From: Nitrincola schmidtii
GTDB lineage: Bacteria; Pseudomonadota; Gammaproteobacteria; Pseudomonadales; Balneatricaceae
DNA: 64,000 nt
Assembly (NCBI RefSeq): GCF_008973715.1
Contig: NZ_WBOL01000006.1
Location: 1-64,000, forward strand
Direction: 5' to 3'
This document shows positions 10,940-38,711 of this stretch, one piece after another; position 1 is the first letter of the stretch, and each line of letters opens with the position of its first letter. Under the pieces are notes generated by a model. The model made no database searches and was not told the origin of the DNA. It saw nothing but the letters and a program-made list of their open reading frames with translations. Made by a program: the position numbers and the translations under genes.

Positions 10940-13537
10940 GTGTCTTCAAGCACTTCCACTTCATCTCTACAAAATCATACCCCAATGATGCAGCAATATT
11001 TGCGTATTAAGGCTGAGCACCCTCATCAATTGCTGTTTTACCGTATGGGTGACTTTTATGAACTTTTTTACAACGATGCTAAACGTGCAGCTCAACTACT
11101 GGATATCTCGTTAACCGCTCGGGGCAAATCTGATGGTCACCCCATTCCTATGGCGGGTGTACCTTACCATGCGGCGGAAGGTTATATTGCCAAACTGGTA
11201 AGACAAGGTGAATCCGTTGTCATCTGTGAACAGGTCGGTGACCCTGCTACCAGCAAAGGACCCGTTGATAGGCAAGTGGCTCGTATCGTCACACCTGGCA
11301 CGTTGACAGATGAAGCCTTTCTTGAAGCCAAAACAGACAGCTTACTGGTGGCTATTTATGTATTACAGCAGCGCTATGGTTTAGCACAACTTGACTTAAG
11401 CTCGGGTCGTTTTAGCCTTCTCGAATTGGTCAGTGAAAATGAATTGCTCGCTGAAATAGAACGACTTCAACCCGCTGAAATTTTGTTTGATGATAATAAC
11501 CTGCTAGCCAGTCTCTTAAAGCAACGCAAAGGACTTCATTCACAACCCCCTTGGTACTTTGAATCGGAAGCTGCCGAGCGTCTTCTCTGCCAGCAATTCA
11601 ATGTAGCTAATCTAGAGGGCTTTGGATGCACACATCTTACGGCTGCAATTGCAGCAGCAGGATGCTTACTACAATATGCTCGCGATACACAGCGCAGCAA
11701 TTTGCCCCATATTCGCAGGCTTCAAGTTGAAGATCGTAGTGAGGCACTGCAGATGGATGCTGCAACACGACGAAACCTCGAGCTGGATACCAATTTGAAT
11801 GGTGGACGTGAAAATACCCTAGCCTCCGTGTTAGATCGTACACAAACCGCGATGGGAAGTAGGCTGCTAAAACGTTGGCTACACAGACCCCTTAGAGACT
11901 TGACCCGCCTAGAGCTTCGCCAAGATGCTATTCGCTGGCTACTCGAGGATTATAGACATGAGACCCTTGCCTGTTCACTGAAACCGATAGGTGATTGCGA
12001 GCGAATACTATCGCGAGTTGCGCTTCGTTCAGCTCGCCCGCGTGACCTTGAACGTTTAAGGGATGCACTCAATGCGCTGCCAGGCATTCAACAAGGTCTT
12101 AAACCGACCGATTCTGTTCGCATAGAAAGTTTGTCTGAAGAAATTGCCGAATTTCCTGATCTCGCTAACCTTCTTCAACGAGCGATTATCGACTCTCCTC
12201 CCGTTGTGATCCGTGATGGCGGGGTTATTGCAAATGGCTATGATGCTGAACTCGACGAACTTCGTGGTCTTAGCGAAAATGCGGGTGAATATCTTCTAGA
12301 ACTGGAGCAACGGGAACGACAACGCACGGGCATCTCTACCCTGAAAGTTGGCTACAACCGTGTTCATGGCTATTACATTGAACTAAGCCGCTCTCAATCC
12401 GACACAGTTCCCGGTGATTATATTCGTCGACAAACACTGAAAAACGCTGAGCGATTTATTACACCAGAGTTAAAAACGTTTGAAGATAAAGCCTTAAGCG
12501 CTAAAGGACGTGCTTTAGCGCGCGAAAAACAACTCTATGATGCATTACTCGAAACCCTAGCGGATCAACTAGCCCCTCTACAGATGAGTGCCTCCGCATT
12601 GGCAGAATTAGATCTACTGTGCTGTCTTGCAGAACGAGCAGAATCACTCAATTATGTTAGACCTCAGCTGACACAAGATATCCTTATAGATATCCAAGGT
12701 GGTCGTCACCCTGTCGTTGAAGAGGTAAATGACACGCCGTTTGTCGCTAATGATCTGCACCTAGATAACGAACAGCATATGTTGATCATTACCGGTCCAA
12801 ACATGGGGGGTAAATCAACCTATATGCGGCAAACCGCCCTGATCACCTTAATGGCGCAGATGGGTAGCTATGTTCCCGCAACCATTGCCAGGATAGGGCT
12901 CACCGATCGTATTTTCACCCGAATGGGTTCTTCTGATGACCTTGCAGGTGGACGCTCAACCTTTATGGTAGAAATGCATGAAACAGCCAACATTCTTCAC
13001 AATGCGACACCTCGCAGCTTGGTGTTGATGGATGAAGTTGGCAGAGGAACCAGTACCTTTGATGGCTTATCACTGGCTTGGTCTTGTGCTGAACATTTAG
13101 CTACCGAGATTAAAGCGATGGTGTTGTTCGCAACGCATTACTTTGAGCTCACAACGCTACCTGAAAGAATTCAAGGCATTCGAAATGTCCACTTAACCGC
13201 AATTGAACATCATGACAGTATTGTGTTTATGCATGAGGTTAGAGAGGGAGCCGCTAATCAAAGCTATGGACTTCAAGTTGCGCAATTGGCGGGAGTTCCA
13301 TCAGAGGTGATTCATCGTGCGCGTGAAAAACTAGTTCAGCTAGAGCAAGATACTCGCCCAGTACCCAAACACAACGAAACGCCCAAACAAACAGGCCCTG
13401 TACAACCTGATATGTTTGCCAGTCCGCAGCCTAGTGCGGCTGAGATCAAACTTAAAAGCCTGTGTCCTGATGAAATGACACCAAAACAAGCACTGGAAGC
13501 ACTGTATCAGCTTCAGGCATTACAACAGGCAAAGTAG
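10940..13537 (+). CDS. mutS: DNA mismatch repair protein MutS
   Basis: Mismatch-recognition ATPase. 865 residues, usual for MutS1. GTG start 5 bases after GGAG. The N-terminal mismatch-binding domain contains the Phe-x-Glu signature ([12 protein letters not shown] near 37-48). The clamp and lever domains occupy the middle. The C-terminal ATPase has Walker A GPNMGGKS at 619-626 and Walker [13 protein letters not shown]. The tail carries the PDMF motif typical of beta-clamp-binding regions (around 824). Divergent from pncC and convergent with rpoS. Confidence 0.97.
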
Positions 13538-13552
13538 AATTGTTAACGTGAT

Positions 13553-13577
13553 GACCTGCTGGCTATTGCAGCAGGTC
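13553..13577. terminator. Hairpin between convergent mutS and rpoS
   Basis: GACCTGCT / AGCAGGTC, 8-bp perfect stem with a 9-base loop. Its right arm includes the last rpoS codons. No long T-run follows on either strand, so it is at best a weak or Rho-assisted bidirectional terminator. Confidence 0.4.
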
Positions 13578-14564
13578 TTCTCCTGTTAGACCATTCTTCT
13601 CGACAATTTCACGTAATTTACGCAAACCTTCCACTTGAATTTGTCTAACTCGTTCACGTGTTAGGCCGATTTCATTACCGACCTCTTCAAGAGTACTCAT
13701 TTCATAACCACGCAATCCAAAACGACGCGCGATCACTTCAGAATGTTTCTCCGGCAACATATCTAACCAGCGATTTAAGTTACCGCTGATATTGGTGGTT
13801 TGCAGTAACGATTCTGGATCTGAACTTTCAGAATCTGCCAAACTATCCAGTAAGGGTTTATCTCCACCACCGACACCGGGAACATCAATAGAAGCGACTC
13901 GCTCATTGAGACCTAGCATCCGCTCTACACTCTCGACTGGTTTTTCAACGAGGGTAGCAATCTCTTCAGCGGTAGGTTCGTGATCTAGTTTCTGAGCCAA
14001 TTGGCGGGATGCACGAAGATATAAATTCAACTCTTTGACAACATGAATGGGTAAACGAATAGTCCGTGTTTGGTTCATGATGGCACGTTCTATAGTCTGA
14101 CGTATCCACCAGGTAGCATAGGTTGAGAAACGAAAACCGCGCTCGGGATCGAACTTTTCGACCGCACGAATAAGGCCAAGATTACCCTCTTCAATCAGAT
14201 CAAGCAGTGTTAAGCCTCGATTGATGTAACGACGCGCAATTTTGACCACTAGACGTAAATTACTCTCTATCATACGCTTACGGGCGGCTTCATCACCTTT
14301 CAAGGCTAAGCGTGAAAAATACACTTCTTCTTCAGCACTTAATAAAGGTGAAAAACCTATTTCGTTTAGATAGATTTGGGTTGCATCAAGGCTTTTAGCA
14401 TTCATCAGATCTTGATGAGTGGCCGTTCCTCGCCCTCGACTAGAATCAAGAAACTCATCGTCTTGAATATCATCATCGTCAGATTCTTCTATATCATCAA
14501 TTAAGTCATCTGAATCTAACAAGAAATCTTCTTCTGCCTTATCACTGTCGTTCATTGACGTCAT
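13563..14564 (-). CDS. rpoS: RNA polymerase sigma factor RpoS (sigma-38)
   Basis: Stationary-phase and general stress sigma factor, 333 residues. An acidic N-terminus (Asp/Glu-rich, about 5-40) precedes region 1.2 and region 2 ([17 protein letters not shown] and the -10-reading helices [17 protein letters not shown]). The C-terminal region 4 helix-turn-helix is [21 protein letters not shown]. Start at ATG 14564 with AAGGG upstream. It is immediately downstream of nlpD, whose coding region carries the main rpoS promoter in other gammaproteobacteria. Distinguished from RpoD by length and lack of the long region 1. Confidence 0.96.
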
Positions 14565-14611
14565 GCAATAACCCTTTCATTGAAATCTGGTATTTCCAGT
14601 TGTTGTTTTTG

Positions 14612-15502
14612 TTATCTTCTTGGAAGATGGCCTAATGGATCTACAGGCCGACCGTTGCGTCTTATTTCAAAATGTAACTGTACCCTGTCCGTTCCTGATT
14701 GACCCATCTCAGCAATTTTATCACCCGCTTTAACCATATCATTTTCACTGACTAAAATGCGACTGTTATGCGCATAAGCACTTAAAAACTCTCGATTATG
14801 ATTAATAATGACTAGGTTGCCGTAACCTAAAAGACCACTACCAGCATAAACCACTCGACCGTCTGCAGCCGCGATAACAGGATCACCTAGCTGACCTGCG
14901 ATATCAATACCTTTATTACCACCCTCTGCAGCAGAGAAACGTCTGATAATTTGACCGTTCGCAGGCCATCGCCAAACCGGCTGTCCAGTCGTTGCTGCTG
15001 GTTGCGGTGTCGATGCGACCGGTTGCGAACTTGTCTGTTGACGTGCCTGCTGCTGAGATGATGACTGCTGATTGGCTGTAGTTTGGCTTGTTTGTTGAGT
15101 TGCAGAGCGAGCAGGTGTTGAGCTCTGCTGTGGTTGAGCCGTTGGCCTTGTTGCTGTTGCCGTTGTTGCAGATCCTGCGGAAGACGGTGGCGATAGGCGC
15201 AGGACTTGTCCTGGAAAAATCTGGAAACGTTCGTTAACGTTATTCCACCTTGCCACTTCACGATAATCCAAACCATAACGCCAAGATATAGAGTACAGGG
15301 TATCTCCACGATTAACGGTGTAACTGCCGGGATTCGGAAGCGGTGCAGGACGGCTTGCTGATGCTTGAGAAGAAACAGGAACTCCCACCTGACGCGCTCC
15401 CATTGAGCGATCAGTCACAGGAGCAAAGCCGGTACCACAGCCTTGTATAAGGCTCAGTAACAGTATCACAAGGATAAAAGCCTGACTGCCCCTGCCGTTC
15501 AC
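14612..15502 (-). CDS. nlpD: Murein hydrolase activator NlpD (LysM/LytM lipoprotein)
   Basis: Outer-membrane lipoprotein that activates amidase AmiC for septal peptidoglycan splitting. GTG start after GGAGATAAC; 296 residues. Lipobox around Cys22 (LIQGC). One LysM domain (about 60-105, SYTVNRGDTLYSISWRYGLD), then a Gln/Ser/Thr-rich linker (about 108-170) and a C-terminal LytM/M23 domain (about 175-290). The zinc ligands are degenerate: the usual HxGxD site reads NKGID and the HxH site reads QLH. This fits an activator rather than an active endopeptidase, as in known NlpD/EnvC. Probably co-transcribed with popT, pcm and surE. Confidence 0.93.
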   Translation of the reverse strand: MNGRGSQAFILVILLLSLIQGCGTGFAPVTDRSMGARQVGVPVSSQASASRPAPLPNPGSYTVNRGDTLYSISWRYGLDYREVARWNNVNERFQIFPGQVLRLSPPSSAGSATTATATRPTAQPQQSSTPARSATQQTSQTTANQQSSSQQQARQQTSSQPVASTPQPAATTGQPVWRWPANGQIIRRFSAAEGGNKGIDIAGQLGDPVIAAADGRVVYAGSGLLGYGNLVIINHNREFLSAYAHNSRILVSENDMVKAGDKIAEMGQSGTDRVQLHFEIRRNGRPVDPLGHLPRR

Positions 15503-15514
15503 GTTATCTCCAAA

Positions 15515-16432
15515 TCAGCGTCTATCCAGCACCAATACGAGCGTACATCCAACCACTATTAATGCTACAGCGAATAGCGTTAATGGGTCTTGTCCCGTCA
15601 GTGCTAAATAGGTGTCGGGTAAAATATTCTTTTGTGCTAGAGGCACCTCTTCACCACGACTATTGATGTTATAAGACAGTGTATATTTCCAAGGCCAAAC
15701 CATATTTAATGACCCAAACATAAAGCCACCTAATAAGGACAGCGTTAAAATTCGGTAATGGTTAAAAGCCCAGCTCAACACACGAGAAAAACTTAACAGA
15801 CCGGTGATGCAGCCAAGCACAAAGATAGAGATAAAACCTAGCTCAAAACTCTTTAACGCCAATAATACAGGCGCATACATACCTAACAGCAGCAAAATAA
15901 AACTACCCGAAATACCCGGTAGTATCATGGCACAGATTGCTATCATGCCTGACAAAAAGATCATTAAATAACCAGGATCAGCGACTGAGGGTGTCAATGC
16001 GGATATCTGCAATGCAATCACTGCGCCTAACATAAACATAGCAGCGACATTAAAGCCGACCTTGCCTGTATGACGCATAACACTCCACGTAGAGGCGAGA
16101 ATCAAACCAAAAAAGAACGACCAGAGTAAAACTGGATATTCATCCAACAAGTACAAAACGACTCGTGCAACCGTTAATAAACTGATCAAAATCCCACTGA
16201 CTAACGTCAGCAAAAAAGTACCATTAATATGCTGCCAACATGCCTTGATACCTTGGGTAAAAAGCACTTTAAGTGCTTCGGGTCCGCACTGGCGAATACT
16301 ATGGATCAGCTCTTCATAGATCCCTGTTATGAAGGCGACTGTTCCTCCAGAAACACCTGGAACGGCATCTGCGGCACCCATCAGCATTCCTTTCCCTGCT
16401 AACTTTATGTAGTATTGCTTGCTTCGCTGCAT
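15515..16432 (-). CDS. popT: DUF368 membrane protein, probable undecaprenyl-phosphate translocase (PopT type)
   Basis: Polytopic membrane protein of 305 residues with about eight hydrophobic helices. The DUF368 signature GAADAVPGVSGGTVAF is at 19-34, with a second related turn in the inverted repeat half (ICAMILPGISGSFILLLLGMY, around 167-187). Family members (PopT) were recently shown to help flip undecaprenyl phosphate back across the membrane for wall and O-antigen synthesis, notably at alkaline pH (published family knowledge). The gene sits between pcm and nlpD, where Enterobacteria and Pseudomonas have no such gene. Function is inferred from family membership only. Confidence 0.82.
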   Translation of the reverse strand: MQRSKQYYIKLAGKGMLMGAADAVPGVSGGTVAFITGIYEELIHSIRQCGPEALKVLFTQGIKACWQHINGTFLLTLVSGILISLLTVARVVLYLLDEYPVLLWSFFFGLILASTWSVMRHTGKVGFNVAAMFMLGAVIALQISALTPSVADPGYLMIFLSGMIAICAMILPGISGSFILLLLGMYAPVLLALKSFELGFISIFVLGCITGLLSFSRVLSWAFNHYRILTLSLLGGFMFGSLNMVWPWKYTLSYNINSRGEEVPLAQKNILPDTYLALTGQDPLTLFAVALIVVGCTLVLVLDRR

Positions 16433-16450
16433 TTTTTACTTAAATCCTTA

Positions 16451-17086
16451 TCAGCGGACCAGTCCACTCAAGAGTGGAACAAATTTGACACCTTCTAACA
16501 CTTCTGTGGCAAAACTACCATCTTCCAACCGAGTCACACGCTTTAATTGCTGAAGGTCCCCGCCAACAGGAATAACAAGGCGACCATTAGGAGCGAGCTG
16601 CTGCAATAACTCTTCAGGCACCTCAGTCGGAGCTGCTGTCACCAAAATACCATCGAAAGGCCCTTTTTCTGGCCACCCCATGCCACCATCACTATGACGC
16701 AACATCACATTATAAAGTTTCAGTCGCTGAAGACGTGTACGTGCTTTTTCTTGTAAAGGGCGAATTCTTTCTACACTAAACAAATGCTCAACCAACTGAG
16801 CTAACACCGCTGTCTGATAACCAGAACCCGTGCCAACTTCTAAAACGTTCTTAAGTGGGCCAGCCGCTAAAAGCGCTTCTGTCATGCGAGCTACAGTATA
16901 AGGCTGCGAGATAGTCTGATTAAAACCAATGGGTAACGAACTGTCCTCATAAGCTCGATGAGCCAGCGCTTCATCTAAAAAAAGATGTCGCGGTGTCGCT
17001 AGCATAACGTCTAGAACATGAGGGTCAGAAATTCCCCTTTCACGTAACCGTGCAATCAATCGTTCGCGTGTTCGACGCGATGTCAT
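16451..17086 (-). CDS. pcm: Protein-L-isoaspartate O-methyltransferase
   Basis: Repairs isoaspartyl damage in ageing proteins using S-adenosylmethionine. The start is taken at ATG 17086 ([19 protein letters not shown] upstream), giving 211 residues as in Pseudomonas. A TTG at 17113 right after GAGGAG would add nine residues and cannot be excluded. The SAM-binding motif [17 protein letters not shown] and the substrate-side [13 protein letters not shown] segment are intact. It follows surE with overlapping signals and precedes popT. Part of the conserved surE-pcm-nlpD-rpoS stress-survival cluster. Confidence 0.94.
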
Positions 17087-17114
17087 GCCGATACCTTGAA
17101 GATCCAGATCCAAC

Positions 17115-17870
17115 TTACAGCTCCTCTAACCAAGTGGCTAGATTATCCATCCCTGAGTAATGCGTCATATCAATTTGAAGGGGGGTTATCGAAACGCAAT
17201 GCTGTTCCAATGCAAAAAAATCGGTACCCGGCTCTCGATCAGCCACATCACCCGCACCTGCAATCCAGTATCGAATCTTACCGCGCGGATCTTCGGCTGG
17301 AACTGGTAAATTGGCTGCTAAACGATGACCTAAGCGCGTGACATGAATCCCTTTGATTTCAGACAACGGCAGATCAGGAACATTGATGTTTAAGACCGTT
17401 CTAGGCGCAATCACTAAAGAATCCAATTTCGCAACAATACTGCGAACTATTTCGGCAGCGGTATCAAAATGCTTAGGGTGAAAACTGTTCATCGATACGG
17501 CAATCGGCGGTAAACGGCAGGTTCGCCCTTCCATCGCTGCTGCAACGGTACCAGAGTAGATGACATCATCACCCAAATTCGCACCGACATTGATACCTGA
17601 AACCACTATATCGGGCACAAAACCATCCATAAATAGACCCGATCGACCTAAATGAACGCAGTCTGTTGGCGTGCCATTAACACTGTAGTAACCCGTTGTG
17701 TGCTGATACGCCTCTAACGGTCTATCAAGCGTCAACGCATTACTGGCGCCACTGCGATTTCTATCCGGTGCAACCACACACAATAAATCGGAATCTTTAC
17801 GCAAGGTTTCAGCCAAGATAGCTAAACCCGGTGCATATACCCCATCATCGTTGGAGACTAAAATCTTCAT
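17115..17870 (-). CDS. surE: 5'/3'-nucleotidase SurE
   Basis: Metal-dependent nucleotidase and exopolyphosphatase, 251 residues. The N-terminal SNDDG (6-10) supplies the two metal-binding aspartates. The [25 protein letters not shown] segment completes the active site. Twenty bases after truD; its stop abuts pcm. Typical member of the surE-pcm-nlpD-rpoS cluster. Confidence 0.95.
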
Positions 17871-17889
17871 CTTCTCTCTCTGGACGCTG

Positions 17890-18945
17890 TTAAACGGCGT
17901 CTTCTGTATGCAAATGAGATAATTCTCTTAACACGCTGGTGGCAAAAGCACCGGCGGGCAAGTCAAAACCTATTGTCCATTGATCGCTGGACTCTTTTTC
18001 TAGAAAAGCGTTATCAAGTAGGATTCGCGCGGCTCTTCGCTCTTGATTTAAACCTAAAGTTTCCAGACCTGAACAGAGTTCTTGCCAGGGTGAAACAACA
18101 GATTGCTCAAAAGCTTCCGCTTCCAAACGGGTCATCAAACCACCGCGCCCCCATAAAGGTGCAGTGAGATGCAAGTCTTTTTCTGCTAGCCTTAATGCTA
18201 GCCCTTCAGCTTCAGCTGGATCAAGGTAATTAAAACAACTTTGACTGGCATTAAGCATTAATACATCGCCGAGAGCAAGCTTGTCCCACAAGCCCTGATC
18301 TATACGTGCCGAGACGACTCGATTAAACAACATCGATCGCAACGCAGAGATATAAAGACCCCGCTTTTGTCGGTTATTTTCGCGTAACTCGCCTAATAAC
18401 ATCCGATAACCCTTGTACAGATTACCGTAGTCATGGCCGAAGCGTTGCTCACCAAAGTAATTGGGTACGCCTTTACACATCAACTGTTCAAATCGTTGCT
18501 GAAGATCGTCACCCTCGGTGACTTGTCTTAATTTAATAACAAAACGATTACCTTGATGGACACCCGTTTTCAATTTTCGACTGTGGCGAGCGTGACGAAG
18601 TACTTGAATAGTATCACTTTCAAACCCAGACCAATCAACCGCTTGTTTTATCGGAATCTTAACACTAAACCACTGCTCAGTAACCGCATGACGGTCCTTC
18701 TTACCGGCATAGCCAATGTCTTTAGGGTGGGTTTTTGTATGACGTGCGAGTTGTTGAGCAACCCAGTCAGTATTTTCACCTGTCTTACGAATCAGTGCGA
18801 AAACATGCTCACCTTCTCCATCAGGCTCAAAACCTAAGTTTTCAGTGACATAAAAATCTTCAGGTAAAGATCGAAAAACAGCTGTAGATTTGGGCTGACC
18901 CAAAAGCCATGTAAGCGGCTGGTGAAGAGATTCAATTAAACTCAT
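17890..18945 (-). CDS. truD: tRNA pseudouridine(13) synthase TruD
   Basis: Isomerises U13 of tRNA-Glu. 351 residues with the nucleophile Asp84 in GYAGKKDRHAVTEQW and the conserved NRFVIKLRQV and NYFGEQRFG motifs. The ATG overlaps the ftsB stop by one base (TAATG), so the two are translationally coupled. In most gammaproteobacteria ispD and ispF lie between ftsB and truD; here they are absent (see findings). Confidence 0.95.
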   Translation of the reverse strand: MSLIESLHQPLTWLLGQPKSTAVFRSLPEDFYVTENLGFEPDGEGEHVFALIRKTGENTDWVAQQLARHTKTHPKDIGYAGKKDRHAVTEQWFSVKIPIKQAVDWSGFESDTIQVLRHARHSRKLKTGVHQGNRFVIKLRQVTEGDDLQQRFEQLMCKGVPNYFGEQRFGHDYGNLYKGYRMLLGELRENNRQKRGLYISALRSMLFNRVVSARIDQGLWDKLALGDVLMLNASQSCFNYLDPAEAEGLALRLAEKDLHLTAPLWGRGGLMTRLEAEAFEQSVVSPWQELCSGLETLGLNQERRAARILLDNAFLEKESSDQWTIGFDLPAGAFATSVLRELSHLHTEDAV

Positions 18946-19241
18946 TACTGTGACCGTCTGCGTGTATCGGGTTCGATAAGACGAAAGAAAGTTTCGCCCT
19001 CTTGGATCAATCCCATTTCACTGCGCGCACGCTCTTCTATGGCCTTCAACCCTTCTTTAAGGTCGGCGACTTCCGCTTCTAAACGTTGATTACGCTCAGT
19101 AAGCAGTTGGTTTTCACGGCGCTGATCAATGATCGCCTGCTCCAGTTGCCAGACTTGGCGAATATTAGGATCACCCAGCCAAAGACGATACTGAAGGGCA
19201 GCTAGGAGCAACACAAGAAAGAGGAGTAACAAACGAAACAC
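18945..19241 (-). CDS. ftsB: Cell division protein FtsB
   Basis: Divisome scaffold of the FtsQLB complex, single-pass membrane protein of 98 residues. GTG start with AGGTGG upstream. N-terminal transmembrane helix (about 2-20), then a leucine-zipper coiled coil (about 28-72) and a short periplasmic tail ending in the conserved GLIQEGETFFRLI. Lies 61 bases downstream of eno and overlaps truD by one base. Confidence 0.93.
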   Translation of the reverse strand: MFRLLLLFLVLLLAALQYRLWLGDPNIRQVWQLEQAIIDQRRENQLLTERNQRLEAEVADLKEGLKAIEERARSEMGLIQEGETFFRLIEPDTRRRSQ

Positions 19242-19260
19242 TCAGCCACCTGCCTTAACA

Positions 19261-19278
19261 GGGGAGGTAACCCTCCCC
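19261..19278 (-). terminator. GC-rich hairpin between eno and ftsB
   Basis: GGGGAGG-TAAC-CCTCCCC is a 7-bp perfect stem with a 4-base loop in the 61-base eno-ftsB gap. No T-run follows, so it is more likely an attenuating or mRNA-processing/stability element lowering ftsB relative to eno than a full terminator. Confidence 0.35.
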
Positions 19279-19302
19279 ATCACGACCCAAAAAGGGTTAA
19301 AA

Positions 19303-20601
<1,299 letters not shown>

Positions 20602-20644
20602 TTACTCTCCAATTAAATGGGTAACATTGTTAGTGTTTTCAGTA

Positions 20645-23649
<3,005 letters not shown>

Positions 23650-23679
23650 AACCGCTAAACGTCTCTTAACTTAACAGAA

Positions 23680-24639
23680 CTAGACAGAACTGACACCGTA
23701 AGACATCAGTCTTTCGTAACGACGCTCTATTAGAGTATCCGTATCCAGAGCGGTTAAACGATCCAAGGAATCTTGTAATTGTAGCTTTAAGCTCGCCGCC
23801 ATATCGGCAGGTTGACGATGTGCACCACCTAAAGGCTCAGGAATAACACGATCGACCAATCCCAACTCATGCAAACGCTCAGAATTAATGCCCATCGCTT
23901 TAGCAGCATCAGAGGCACGTTCAGCACTCTTCCACAAAATAGACGCACAGCCTTCAGGAGAAATAACCGAGTAAGTACCGTATTGCAGCATTAATAATTC
24001 ATCACAAACACCAATCGCCAGGGCACCACCGGAACCACCCTCACCAATCACCGTAGAGATAATCGGCGTGCGCAAACGTGACATTTTTGCAAGATTAAAA
24101 GCAATCGCTTCGGACTGGCCACGCTCTTCGGCATCAATACCCGGATAGGCACCCGGTGTATCAATAAAGGTTAAAATAGGCAGTTTAAATCTCTCTGCCA
24201 TTTCCATGATTCTAAGCGCTTTACGATAACCTTCAGGCCGTGGCATTCCAAAATTACGGCGAACCTTTTCTTTGACTTCACGACCTTTTTGATGACCGAT
24301 GATGGCAACTGGTGCGCCATCTAAACGCGCTATACCACCGACGATGGCAGGATCATCAGCAAAGTGACGATCACCATGGATTTCATCAAAATCATCAAAC
24401 GCCAAGTGAATATAATCCAGCGTATAGGGACGCTGTGGATGACGCGAGAGCTGAGAAATTTGCCATGCAGTCAAGTCATCAAAGATTGAGCGGGTGAGTT
24501 TATGGCTTTTCTCTTGCAGTGTATTGATCTCTTCGCTGAGATTCAGATCTGCGTTGCCTTCGCCAACATGGCGTAACTCTTTGATTTTGGCTTCTAGTTC
24601 AGCAATAGGCTGTTCAAAATCCAGATAATTTGGGTTCAT
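23680..24639 (-). CDS. accA: Acetyl-CoA carboxylase carboxyltransferase, alpha subunit
   Basis: One half of the carboxyltransferase that transfers CO2 from biotin to acetyl-CoA in fatty acid synthesis. 319 residues with an N-terminal helical region and the crotonase-like core containing [18 protein letters not shown] and the Gly-rich [12 protein letters not shown]. Downstream of dnaE (121-base gap) and 30 bases upstream of tilS, the standard order. Confidence 0.97.
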
Positions 24640-24760
24640 GCGCTTCCAGTTTTGCGATAATCAAAGGTTAAAAAATAAATATTGGGTAAGATTTTACCTG
24701 CTGAACAAGCGGATCACCAGTCTCGTCTAATGCAGAGTGACTGATTTGATCACTCAAGTG

Positions 24761-27700
24761 TCAGTGATCGGGCCAAACCAACCTGACTGCAGCATTACCA
24801 AATAGCTCTTTAAGTGCAATAATCTGCTCATCAGACGGTTCTGGCTGCCAAGCATCACCCAAGCGTAGATCCCCTTCAGCATCTTCACGCTGAAAACGCA
24901 ACGCAATCGAAATTCGATCGAGCGATTGCTGGCTTTTCATCAAACACTCTTTCAGAGTTTTGATACGCGCATTGCTTAACTGCTGCTGATCACATTGAAT
25001 TTCAATATGACTGGCATGCCGTGCGCGTGCCTGAGTCACACTCATGACGCTTTGACCTCGGGCACGAACACCACCATTGTATTCGTCAGGAGCGACCTCT
25101 CCTTCGATGATCAACACCACATCTTTGTTGATGATGGAACGTGCCGAATCGTAGACATCACCAAACAAGGTGATGTCCATTCGCGCACTGCGATCATCAA
25201 GGGTCAAAATGCAGAGATTATCGCCCTTTTTGGTCTTTTTAATGCGCATGTCCACGATAAGCCCAGCCATTTTTTGAGAACGGCCACGTTGAGGTTGGAT
25301 ATCCACCAGCTTACGACTGACCAATCGAGATAACTCGGGCTCATACTCATCAATAGGATGACCGGTTACATAGAGACCTAAGGTTTCTTTTTCACCGACT
25401 AAGCGCTCTTTATCACTCCACTCTCGAACTTGAGTATACTCGACATAGGGATCGCTCGGTGTTTCTGCAATCACCTCACCAAACAAATCCAACATCCCTG
25501 CATCTTCATTTTTGGCAGCTTGATCCGCTGACTGCAAGGCAGCCCCTATCGCATGCCATAATACCGATCGACTTGGACCGAGTTTATCCAAGGCACCGCA
25601 ACGAACCAACGCTTCCATAACACGTTTATTCAATTTCTTAACACCAACGCGTGCACAGAAGTCGAAAAGATCTTTAAAAGGCCCCGTCTGCCTTGCTTGC
25701 ATAATTCCTTCCACGGGTCCTTCACCAACACCTTTAACCGCACCAAGTCCGTATACAATTTCGTTGGCGTCATTGACGGTAAACATAAACTCACTGGCAT
25801 TGACATCCGGTAAGTTCACCTTCAGCTTCATCTGGCGGCACTCTTCGATAAAGATCACCACTTTATCGGTGTTTTGCATATCCGATGACAAAACTGCCGC
25901 CATGAAAGGAGCCGGATAAAAGGTTTTTAACCAAGCAGTTTGATATGAGACCAATGCGTATGCAGCAGAGTGAGATTTGTTAAAACCGTATCCCGCAAAC
26001 TTCTCCACAAGATCGAAGATATTTCCGGCTAGATTGACATCAATACCTTCCTTAACCGAACCATCTAAAAAGAATTGGCGCTGTTTTGCCATCTCTTCTG
26101 GCTTCTTTTTACCCATCGCACGGCGCAGCAAGTCAGCTTCGCCTAAAGAGTAGCCTGCCATCACCTGAGCGATCTGCATGACTTGTTCTTGGTAAAGAAT
26201 AATACCGTAGGTGGGTTCCAAGACGGGCTGAAGACTGTCAAGCTGATAATCAGGATGTGGCCAGGCTAACGGCGCTCGACCATGCTTACGGTTGATAAAG
26301 TCATCCACCATCCCTGACTGCAAAGGCCCCGGTCTAAAGAGCGCTACCAGTGCGATAATGTCTTCAAAACGGCTCGGCTGAAGTCGCCTAATCAAGTCTT
26401 TCATGCCGGATGACTCCAGCTGGAAAACAGCCGTTGTTTCGGCACGCTGAAGCATCTTGAACACTTCAGGGTCTTCTAAATTGATTCCCTCAATGAACAG
26501 ATCGTCTTCACCGCGACGACGGCGCTGGGTATTAATAGTACGAAGCGCCCAATCAATGATCGTTAAAGTACGCAGACCCAAAAAGTCGAATTTAACCAGA
26601 CCCGCTTCTTCAACATCGTTTTTATCATACTGAGTGACTAACCCCTGCCCCTGTTCATCACAATAGGTGGCCGAGAAATCCGTCAGTTTGGTTGGTGCGA
26701 TAACCACACCACCGGCGTGTTTTCCGACGTTACGGGTAATACCCTCAAGCTTAAGCGCCATTTCCCATATTTCAGCCGCTTCTTCATTGTTGGTAACGAA
26801 ATCTTTAAGCACCTCTTCTTGTTCAACTGCTTTACCCAGCGTCATACCCACTTCGAAGGGAATCATTTTTGATAAACGATCAGCCAAACCAAAGGGTTTT
26901 CCCTGAACGCGAGCCACATCTCGCACCACCGCTTTTGCTGCCATGGTTCCGTAAGTGATGATCTGCGAAACGGCATCACGTCCATAGCGGTCAGCAACGT
27001 AGTCGATAACGCGATCACGATTATCCATGCAGAAGTCGATATCAAAGTCCGGCATGGAGACACGTTCTGGATTAAGAAATCGCTCGAACAGCAGATCGTA
27101 TTCGAGTGGATCAAGATCGGTAATCTTTAACGCATAGGCTACTAAGGAACCGGCACCTGATCCTCGACCAGGACCCACCGGTATCTGGTTATCCTTGGCC
27201 CACTGAATAAAGTCCATAACGATTAGGAAGTAACCAGGGAAACCCATCTGAATAATGATATCCAGCTCAAACTTCAAGCGATCGAAATAAACCTGTCGCT
27301 TGCTGGCATATTCTGGATCTTGAGTATCCAAAATGGTCTTGAGACGAAACTCTAACCCTTCCTCCGAGGCATGACGAAAAAACTCGTCCATCGTCATCCC
27401 ATCAGGGATGGGGTACTCTGGTAGGTAGTAAGTACCTAGCTCTATCTCGATATTGCAACGCTGAGCGATGGCGACGGTGTTTTCTATCGCAGAAGGCAAG
27501 TCAGCAAATAACTCTGCCATCTCTGCACTACTGCGAAAATACTGTTGATCAGAGTAATCTTTTGGGCGTGAAGGATCTGCCAGTGTTCGACTCTGGTTAA
27601 TACACACGCGTGCTTCATGTGCTTCAAAATCTTCAGCGTAGAGAAACATCACCTCGTTGGTGGCAACTAAGGGGCAGTCAAATTGACTGGCTAAGGCTGC

Positions 27701-35167: not shown

Positions 35168-36520
35168 TTACAGGCGTGCTAGATCATTAAATATTGCCAG
35201 AGCCATTAAACTGAACAACAGGAACATACCTATTTTCAGCCCAATCATTTGAACTTGCTCACTGACTGGCTTACCTCTGATCAGCTCGACCATATAATAC
35301 ATCAGATGGCCACCATCTAGCATCGGTATTGGCAACAAATTCAAAATTCCTAAGCTGATACTCAGGTAGGCAAGAAACATAATAAAGGTTTCGAACCCAG
35401 AGGCAGCAGAGTCACCTGCCACTTTAGCAATGGTTATCGGTCCACTCAAGTTTTTAACTGAAATGATCCCTACAATCATTTTTCTGATAGAGTCGAGCGT
35501 CAACATGATCATCTGACCAGTCCGGTCAACACCCATGACTAATGCTTGCACGGGGCCATAGCGTATTTCCCGTAACATCTCATCAGGCCACTCTGGCATC
35601 TGCACTCCCGCACCAATATATCCGGAAAGTGTTCCGTCTTCACCCTTACGAGCAGCCGGTGTCACATCAATTGTCAACAAACGACCATTTCTATCTATTT
35701 CGAAGGTTAACGGCTGTTCAGGGCTTTGCTGTATCTGCTCTACCAAACCTTGCCATGTATCCAAAAGCTGGCCGTTTAAGCTGACTATTTGATCACCTGT
35801 TTGCAGCCCTGCTTGAGCCGCACGACCATCGTTAACCAGCTGACCTAAAACTGGCGCAACATCAGGACGCCAAGGAATAAATCCCAATGCAGAGACGGGT
35901 GATTCCCGCTCCAGATCCACTCGCCAATCATTCAAACTAACGTGATACAGACGGACACTTCGACCAGGCTCTGCGGCTTCTACCTCGATAACTCGCGTAT
36001 CACCAATTAAAGCAGCCAAACGCAAATTCACTTGATCCCATGAATTCACACGAAAACCATTAATCGACAAGATCTCTTCACCTGACTGAACACCTGCGAT
36101 TTCAACAGGCGATCCGGGCCTTACCTCACCCACTTTGGGGATGACAACGCTAGTACCGACAACAAATAGAAACCAGTAGGCTAAAACAGCAAAAAGTAAA
36201 TTGACGATAGGCCCTGCGGCCACGATCGCAATGCGTTGCAGTACTGGCTTAGTATTGAAAGCTTGACCTTGCCACTCGGGTGGAACCTTGTCTTCACGCT
36301 CATCCAGCATGCGCACATAACCACCTAAAGGAATTGCTGCTACAACATACTCAGTTTCATCTTTACCACGCCAGGAGAATAATGGCTTACCAAAACCTAC
36401 TGAAAACCTGAGCACCCGCACACCACATCGGCGCGCTACCCAGTAGTGACCCCACTCATGAATAGTGACTAGAATTCCAAGAGTAACCAGTGTGGCTAAG
36501 ATGGTCTGGATCAAACCCAT
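35168..36520 (-). CDS. rseP: RIP metalloprotease RseP
   Basis: Site-2 intramembrane protease of the sigma-E envelope stress cascade. 450 residues. Zinc motif HEWGH at 21-25 in the first transmembrane helix. Two periplasmic PDZ domains (about 110-210 and 210-300). The second zinc-ligand motif is MLDGGHLMYY near residue 400. The ATG lies 30 bases after the cdsA stop; dxr, usually between them, is missing. Confidence 0.96.
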   Translation of the reverse strand: MGLIQTILATLVTLGILVTIHEWGHYWVARRCGVRVLRFSVGFGKPLFSWRGKDETEYVVAAIPLGGYVRMLDEREDKVPPEWQGQAFNTKPVLQRIAIVAAGPIVNLLFAVLAYWFLFVVGTSVVIPKVGEVRPGSPVEIAGVQSGEEILSINGFRVNSWDQVNLRLAALIGDTRVIEVEAAEPGRSVRLYHVSLNDWRVDLERESPVSALGFIPWRPDVAPVLGQLVNDGRAAQAGLQTGDQIVSLNGQLLDTWQGLVEQIQQSPEQPLTFEIDRNGRLLTIDVTPAARKGEDGTLSGYIGAGVQMPEWPDEMLREIRYGPVQALVMGVDRTGQMIMLTLDSIRKMIVGIISVKNLSGPITIAKVAGDSAASGFETFIMFLAYLSISLGILNLLPIPMLDGGHLMYYMVELIRGKPVSEQVQMIGLKIGMFLLFSLMALAIFNDLARL

Positions 36521-36550
36521 GTAATACTCCAGATCAATTTCGTCGCAGAC

Positions 36551-37360
36551 CTAAAGGACTGGAAAATAGATCAAACCTAATAAAAAAATCGGTGCAGCAG
36601 CAGTAATACTATCGATACGATCTAGTACACCACCATGCCCGGGTAACAGGGTACCACTGTCTTTGATGCCACGTTCACGCTTGAACATACTTTCAAAAAG
36701 ATCACCTAAAACAGAAGCTACCGCTGTTATTACGGCTAACACGATTAAAAAGACCGCTGAAACGAATGAAAGTTCTCTTAAGAATGCGTAAACAGCGGCA
36801 ATTACAACACAGGTTACCAAGCCTCCATAAACCCCTTCTAAGGTTTTTCCTGGGCTTACTCGTGGCATTAATTTTCGCTTGCCCATCGCGCGACCAGCAA
36901 AGTAGGCTCCTGTATCTGCGCCCCACACCAAGAAAAGCAACAAAAAAATTAACCACACCCCGTCTGGAAGCGCTTTAATTGCAGTCAGAGCGGCCCATGC
37001 CGGAACTAACACCCACATTCCGATAACGAGTTTTGGTCCACAGGCCGACCAGCGCAACCCCTCTGGAAACCTCAACACCATCACAATCGCAAGCAACCAA
37101 AACAAGCCCGCGGCTATGACTATGGTAGTCAATAAGTTATGCAACCCGATTGCTGCAATGACGCACATAATCAAACCAGCCACACCGACATAAACCAAAC
37201 GATTTTGACGACCAATGCGGCAAAAATTCGACCACTCCCACGCACCATATAGGGTTACGCAACCAACCAACAGCGAAAACAGCCACACAGGAGCCCAAAT
37301 CACGGCACCAAGCACCAGAATGCCTAATATCAAAGCTGTTATCACTCGTTGTTTCAGCAC
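36551..37360 (-). CDS. cdsA: Phosphatidate cytidylyltransferase
   Basis: Integral membrane enzyme making CDP-diacylglycerol for phospholipid synthesis. 269 residues and about eight hydrophobic helices. The C-terminal signature FKRERGIKDSGTLLPGHGG...RIDS is intact. GTG start three bases after the uppS stop, hence coupled. Confidence 0.95.
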   Translation of the reverse strand: MLKQRVITALILGILVLGAVIWAPVWLFSLLVGCVTLYGAWEWSNFCRIGRQNRLVYVGVAGLIMCVIAAIGLHNLLTTIVIAAGLFWLLAIVMVLRFPEGLRWSACGPKLVIGMWVLVPAWAALTAIKALPDGVWLIFLLLFLVWGADTGAYFAGRAMGKRKLMPRVSPGKTLEGVYGGLVTCVVIAAVYAFLRELSFVSAVFLIVLAVITAVASVLGDLFESMFKRERGIKDSGTLLPGHGGVLDRIDSITAAAPIFLLGLIYFPVL

Positions 37361-37363
37361 AAA

Positions 37364-38110
37364 TTAAGCCTCTATCTGGTCTGATGTTTTTCCAAATCGT
37401 CGCTGACGACTTGAATAGCATTCGATTGCCTTTTGCAAATCAGCTTTGCCAAAATCTGGCCAATAGCAATCGCAAAAGTAAAGTTCAGTATATGCCATCT
37501 GCCATATTAAGAAATTACTGATTCTTTGCTCACCCCCTGTCCTAATACATAAATCAGGAGCAGGCAAATCAGCAAGAGAGGTAAAATTATTGAAACATAC
37601 CTCATCAATATCATCTAACTGAATTTTGCCAAGAAGGCAGGCTTGCGTGAGCTTTTTAGCAGATTCAACAATATCCCACCGACCACCATAGTTAGCAGCA
37701 ACGTTAAGCACTAAACGGGTGTTATTGGCAGTAAGCAACTCTGCATCATGCATACGCTTTTGTAACTTTTCAGAGAAACGACTGCGATCGCCAATAATGC
37801 GCAGACGAATGCCATGACGATGTAATTTCTTTACCTCTCGGTCAAGCGAGAGTAAAAAAAGATCCATCAAGCCACTGACTTCTTTTTCAGGTCGTTTCCA
37901 GTTTTCACTACTAAACGCAAATAGGGTAAGTACCTCGACACCCAGCTCAACACAGGCTTCGATGGTTTGCCTTACACTATGCACACCTGCTTTATGCCCA
38001 GCCAAACCTGGCAAATGACGCTGTTTAGCCCAACGATTATTACCATCCATAATGATGGCAATATGCGCAGGCAAAGAAGCAGATGTAAATGAGGAATCTG
38101 ATGAGGACAT
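37364..38110 (-). CDS. uppS: Undecaprenyl diphosphate synthase
   Basis: Cis-prenyltransferase that elongates farnesyl-PP with isopentenyl-PP to the C55 wall lipid carrier. 248 residues. IIMDGNNRWAKQR at 19-31 with catalytic Asp22, and the CIRTGGEQRISNFL signature. Its presence shows that isopentenyl-PP must be made even though MEP genes are absent from this region. Confidence 0.96.
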   Translation of the reverse strand: MSSSDSSFTSASLPAHIAIIMDGNNRWAKQRHLPGLAGHKAGVHSVRQTIEACVELGVEVLTLFAFSSENWKRPEKEVSGLMDLFLLSLDREVKKLHRHGIRLRIIGDRSRFSEKLQKRMHDAELLTANNTRLVLNVAANYGGRWDIVESAKKLTQACLLGKIQLDDIDEVCFNNFTSLADLPAPDLCIRTGGEQRISNFLIWQMAYTELYFCDCYWPDFGKADLQKAIECYSSRQRRFGKTSDQIEA

Positions 38111-38153
38111 AGGACGAGTGGCGGGACTTAAATCCCGCGCTCCAGTAGATACA

Positions 38154-38711
38154 TTAAATTTCCATTAAATCCGACTCTTTTTGAGCCAGCAATGTGTCCA
38201 CTTCCGATACAAACTTATCGGTCAATTTTTGAACTTGATCTTCACCACGACGCTCTTCATCTTCGCTGATCGACTTTTCTTTCAGAAGATCTTTAATATT
38301 ACTGTTAGCGTCACGGCGAATGTTACGAATGGCAATTTTAGCGTTTTCCGCTTCTCCTTTTGCCTGCTTGATATAAACCTTACGAGTTTCTTCAGTCAGC
38401 GCAGGCATAGGCACACGAATGACATCACCCGCAGTGTTGGGGTTAATCCCTAAATCAGACTTCATAATTGCTTTCTCAACCTCGGGCACCATCTTCTTTT
38501 CCCAAGGAATGATGGTTAAGGTACGAGAGTCTTCAACATTGATATTAGCCACTTGCGAAATAGGCATCATCGATCCGTAATAAGAGACTTGCACACTATC
38601 CAGAATACTGGGATGAGCTCGTCCAGTACGGATTTTCTTAAAATTTTCCACTAACGAGTCGATGCTCTTCGCCATACGCGTTTCAGCATCTTTAGTAATT
38701 TCATTCAGCAT
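38154..38711 (-). CDS. frr: Ribosome recycling factor
   Basis: Splits post-termination ribosomes with EF-G. The start is taken at ATG 38711 ([13 protein letters not shown]), six bases after AGGAG; the frame runs ten codons further up inside pyrH. 185 residues, the usual length. Conserved [15 protein letters not shown] and [13 protein letters not shown] segments. Overlaps the pyrH end by 11 bases. Confidence 0.96.

Follow-up and report, generated by a model that had tools for sequence, protein, structure and literature searches.

Gene content at the ftsB/truD junction and at the dxr site

The analysis of the window, meaning here the whole 64,000-nucleotide stretch of DNA, placed ftsB and truD directly next to each other on the minus strand. 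The product of ftsB (18945..19241, minus strand; 98 aa) scored 121.8 bits with the NCBIfam FtsB model, above the cut-off, and that of truD (17890..18945, minus strand; 351 aa) was recognized by the TruD family model. The TAA stop of ftsB and the ATG start of truD, both at 18945, have a single base in common, the A at 18945 (minus strand, ...CAGTAATGAGT...), and form a TAATG seam at 18943..18947 of the same strand. In intact relatives from the same order (loci L240, L244, L245, L246 and L252) this is the site of ispD followed by ispF. The flanking genes were found at their usual places: eno (19303..20598, minus strand) upstream of ftsB, and surE (17115..17870, minus strand) downstream of truD, followed by pcm, a DUF368 gene, nlpD and rpoS. 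An earlier note on this DNA had described a one-base overlap without ispD or ispF in conserved surroundings, and both the coordinates and the family models bear this out. It had also called the excision scarless. Scans of positions 12000-26000 of the window in all six frames, with profiles built from relatives, detected no remnant of ispD or ispF.

A second seam, which the earlier note had not pointed out, was observed in the window, in the gene order frr-uppS-cdsA-rseP-bamA-skp-lpxD-fabZ-lpxA-lpxB-rnhB-dnaE, where dxr is absent from the frr-uppS-cdsA-rseP part. In E. coli K-12 dxr sits between frr and uppS, and in Pseudomonas between cdsA and rseP. Here frr (38154..38708) and uppS (37364..38110) are separated by 43 bp (38111..38153), and cdsA (36551..37360) and rseP (35168..36520) by 30 bp (36521..36550), all on the minus strand. 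With gaps of only 43 and 30 bp at these two places, three MEP genes are gone from two conserved operons within less than 20 kb. As the earlier note had pointed out, uppS, whose product consumes isoprenoids, is intact in the window, and isopentenyl-PP (IPP) is therefore still needed.

MEP genes in the genome and in the family Nitrincolaceae

The genome (3.14 Mb in 34 contigs, estimated to be 100% complete) has its nearest named relatives in Nitrincola, family Nitrincolaceae. The empty junction could be explained by relocation, with ispD and ispF elsewhere in the genome and the MEP pathway still working, and two weak matches to the IspD profile pointed in that direction. However, one of the matches was GlmU (471 aa) and the other was a protein resembling MobA; neither was IspD. 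Profile searches of the whole genome gave no match for IspF and no Dxr, and the absence of IspF, IspH and Dxr extends through the family: IspF was found in none of 99 Nitrincolaceae genomes from 16 genera, and IspH in none of 98. Intact copies elsewhere in the genome, which the earlier note had named as the sign of relocation, were thus not found, and we give this explanation almost no weight. The Dxr profile produced eight weak matches in relatives, each of about 57 to 65 residues. The one inspected (L080) was a homoserine dehydrogenase; the other seven matched the same stretch of the profile, in frames similar in length to that of L080.

DXS, in contrast to these enzymes, was matched in all 98 family genomes, above the curated cut-off in 92 of them, and the frame in the present genome scored 719 bits (cut-off 466). 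Its product DXP also feeds the synthesis of thiamine and PLP, which is the probable reason for its retention.

Comparison of the junction with relatives, as the earlier note had proposed, showed ftsB immediately 5′ of truD in 37 of 37 Nitrincolaceae (30 of the 30 closest and 7 of 7 more distant ones, from 13 genera), whereas in intact sister genera ispD-ispF still lies between the two. Overlap by exactly one base is not conserved: spacing in the family ranges from 4-base overlaps (ATGA, TTGA) to a spacer of about 120 bp. The one-base overlap is therefore one variant of an old junction. As the genome is a draft of 34 contigs, loss of the genes in an assembly gap or a chimeric contig might be considered, but the seam is present in all 37 family genomes, including single-contig genomes such as G065, G043 and G023, which makes an assembly or binning artefact exceedingly improbable. 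The loss is shared by the entire family Nitrincolaceae and is not particular to this species. The earlier note's suggestion of an old loss in cells that still require isoprenoids is supported by the family-wide absences and by the full mevalonate operon described below.

The mevalonate operon

The mevalonate genes for which the earlier note had recommended a search were found in one operon (G000:C12:235992-242251, G000 being the present genome). It encodes HMG-CoA reductase (HMGR), a type-2 IDI, HMG-CoA synthase, two GHMP kinases (K1 and K2) and diphosphomevalonate decarboxylase (MVD), and is followed by polB. The genes overlap or almost touch, HMGR and IDI2 by an ATGA. Three of the products exceeded the curated cut-offs of their NCBIfam equivalog models: HMG-CoA synthase (TIGR01835, 529 bits, cut-off 360), IDI (TIGR02151, 365 bits, cut-off 281) and MVD (TIGR01240, 311.6 bits, cut-off 171; the phosphomevalonate decarboxylase model remained far under its own cut-off). 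The most distant solved match of the MVD was 3lto, which we take to be the Legionella enzyme.

HMGR was matched at 7.8e-83 in the genome search, gave 279 bits with PF00368 (cut-off 27) and scored under the cut-off of the class-I equivalog model TIGR00533. Its nearest solved relatives are the archaeal 6hr7 and the human 1dq8, both class I, and on this basis the enzyme appears to be class I-like. The motifs around the active-site residues E, K, D and H align between the operon enzyme and these two structures. The protein is about 345-350 aa long (L003:1465-2517), and the N-terminal part of the Pfam domain (its first ~40 positions), the site of the ENVIG dimerisation motif, is missing in all seven aligned sequences; in this it differs from its archaeal and eukaryotic relatives.

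Both kinases were most MVK-like, neither reached a PMK cut-off, and profile searches against solved structures did not single out one of them as PMK. K2 matched the solved MVK 4hac with 5.7e-31, most resembled archaeal MVK and fell short of the TIGR00549 cut-off (150.6 versus 163). K1, the second GHMP kinase of these operons, reached the cut-off of no PMK model; a single-sequence AlphaFold model of it was discarded (pLDDT 35). K2 is taken as the putative MVK, and the PMK step is given to K1 by operon context only.

HMGR of this genome was 99% identical to that of an Oceanospirillales MAG and 93-97% to the closest Nitrincola records. Nearly all the named loci carried this operon with the same gene order; they came from Nitrincola, Marinobacterium, Neptunomonas, Neptuniibacter, Amphritea, Motiliproteus and Balneatrix, and in most Nitrincolaceae it is flanked by the argG region before it and polB after it. 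An operon of the Nitrincolaceae type was also seen in a MAG labelled Lentisphaeria (L156), next to a Cas9-like gene and apparent Cas1/Cas2, and reflects either transfer or misbinning.

Probable pathway replacement in the order

The order was sampled with 391 genomes, of which 349 have IspF. The 42 without it comprise 20 from f1, which are all the sampled Nitrincolaceae, 16 from f36, 5 from f7, a group that includes Endozoicomonadaceae, and 1 from f5 (the last 22 being derived by subtraction). HMGR and MVD occur together in 42 of these 42 genomes, counts that shared ancestry makes non-independent, and MVD in only 4 of the 349 IspF-positive ones (G269, G279, G348 and G434). In G279 and G348 the IspF matches scored about 1e-29 to 1e-30, compared with about 1e-54 to 1e-72 in nearly all other genomes.

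These data bear on the possibility that isoprenoid precursors are imported and that the role of the operon is to degrade mevalonate or to supply a secondary metabolite. Among IspF-positive genomes HMGR is often present on its own (97 of 349), a pattern to be expected of hopanoid clusters or of mevalonate catabolism. The operon, however, encodes the synthase, the kinases, MVD and IDI, the presence of MVD tracks the absence of IspF almost exactly, and Nitrincolaceae include free-living cultured species. Import is accordingly very unlikely.

In f7 and f36 ftsB again abuts truD, and IspF-positive sisters keep ispD-ispF at the site. Some genera of f5, of f7 and of f36 still have IspF, so the losses in these three families are distinct from the loss in f1. 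The same gap appears to have arisen on separate occasions in three or more related lineages; it recurs in Endozoicomonadaceae and in two other families, whose sister genera retain the genes. The f5 genome (G294) has in its ftsB-truD gap an open frame of 146 codons that starts with MRI (L243:1038-1478). HMMER gave this frame only 1.3 bits against IspF, and Pfam gave no match. Global profile alignment with IspF scored 17.7, compared with 3.0 +/- 1.9 in 200 shuffles (maximum 10.2); in a simpler pairwise comparison the signal was weaker (z 2.4, with 22 of 1000 shuffles equally good). The IspF metal-ligand motifs DVH and HSDGD are not present in the frame. We take it as a possible decaying or repurposed IspF.

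One type of operon is common to f1, f7 and G294. In f36, the two clusters seen in full, those of G340 and G133, contain MVD, a GHMP kinase and a fusion of HMGR with a GHMP kinase, with a NUDIX-type isomerase in G340. The fusion protein has about 750-755 aa (L256:5798-8062 in G340), its kinase being a mevalonate kinase by context. Such a fusion is probably also encoded at L258:5981-8230 and L259:5831-8119, and probably in the dual-pathway genome G269. G348 and G269, which keep IspF, have a gene set similar to that of f36, unfused in G348. In these two genomes (L257, L258) the mevalonate genes lie beside an apparent squalene-hopene cyclase gene and HpnH-like hopanoid genes, as judged by eye.

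The existence of two operon types suggests at least two independent gains. It also bears on whether the mevalonate operon was ancestral to the order, the other families having kept MEP and lost mevalonate. Related six-gene operons in Endozoicomonadaceae and in one f5 genome would fit such an ancestry, as would the presence of IspF together with MVD in four genomes. Against it stand the predominance of MEP, judged by IspF, in 349 of 391 genomes, the different type of the f36 operon with its HMGR-MVK fusion, and the Lentisphaeria-labelled MAG, which favours transfer. We consider an ancestral operon unlikely. Three observations point to transfer: the distribution is patchy, there are two operon types, and the same MAG carries the operon. 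The operon tree is effectively unrooted and names no donor lineage.

In our opinion the data are very probably explained by non-orthologous replacement, in which a six-gene mevalonate operon was acquired horizontally, the MEP genes were then cleanly lost and DXS was kept. The ancestor of Nitrincolaceae would have gained the class-I HMGR, IDI-2, HMG-CoA synthase, the two GHMP kinases (MVK and PMK) and MVD. The operon would make IPP from acetoacetyl-CoA and acetyl-CoA, and IDI-2 would give DMAPP. The MEP genes would then have become dispensable, so that ispD-ispF could be deleted from between ftsB and truD, and dxr from the operon that runs from frr to rseP; the essential genes transcribed with them would have been kept and packed tightly. 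DXS would have survived as the source of DXP for thiamine and PLP. Gain, redundancy and then loss is the simplest order of events. Extended to the whole order, we think it rather likely that at least two unrelated operon types displaced MEP at least four times, with ispD-ispF removed from the ftsB/truD junction each time, and that the genomes with both IspF and MVD and that with the probably dead IspF-derived frame represent stages of replacement.

Replacement of MEP by mevalonate is known from other bacteria, for example Legionella and Coxiella, in which isoprenoids are likewise made through a mevalonate operon in place of MEP. The HMGR is a point of difference: in Nitrincolaceae it is class I-like, whereas PMC13370337 deals with that of Legionella as one of the bacterial HMGRs. 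Listeria, according to PMC13001223, relies chiefly on mevalonate and retains part of MEP for a different purpose. Listeria MEP is retained up to MEcDP, whereas Nitrincolaceae keep DXS without Dxr, IspD, IspF or IspH. The six-gene operon resembles the isoprenoid route of animals and archaea. Mevalonate use in bacteria is well known (12.03% of the species analysed in PMC13001223), and the repeated loss at one junction is the most interesting part of the present data. The papers searched yielded no report of the switch in Nitrincolaceae and no mention of the family; it may already stand as a mevalonate user in the species table of PMC13001223.

Some relatives within the order have MEP, some have both pathways, some have mevalonate only, and a possibly decaying IspF is also represented, which makes the sequence of replacement steps directly testable. 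For Nitrincolaceae, the data very probably place a whole gammaproteobacterial family, with many marine or alkaliphilic members, on the mevalonate route. Its members are predicted to be insensitive to fosmidomycin and other MEP inhibitors and may be sensitive to statins, and the MEP pathway should not be assumed in gammaproteobacterial models.
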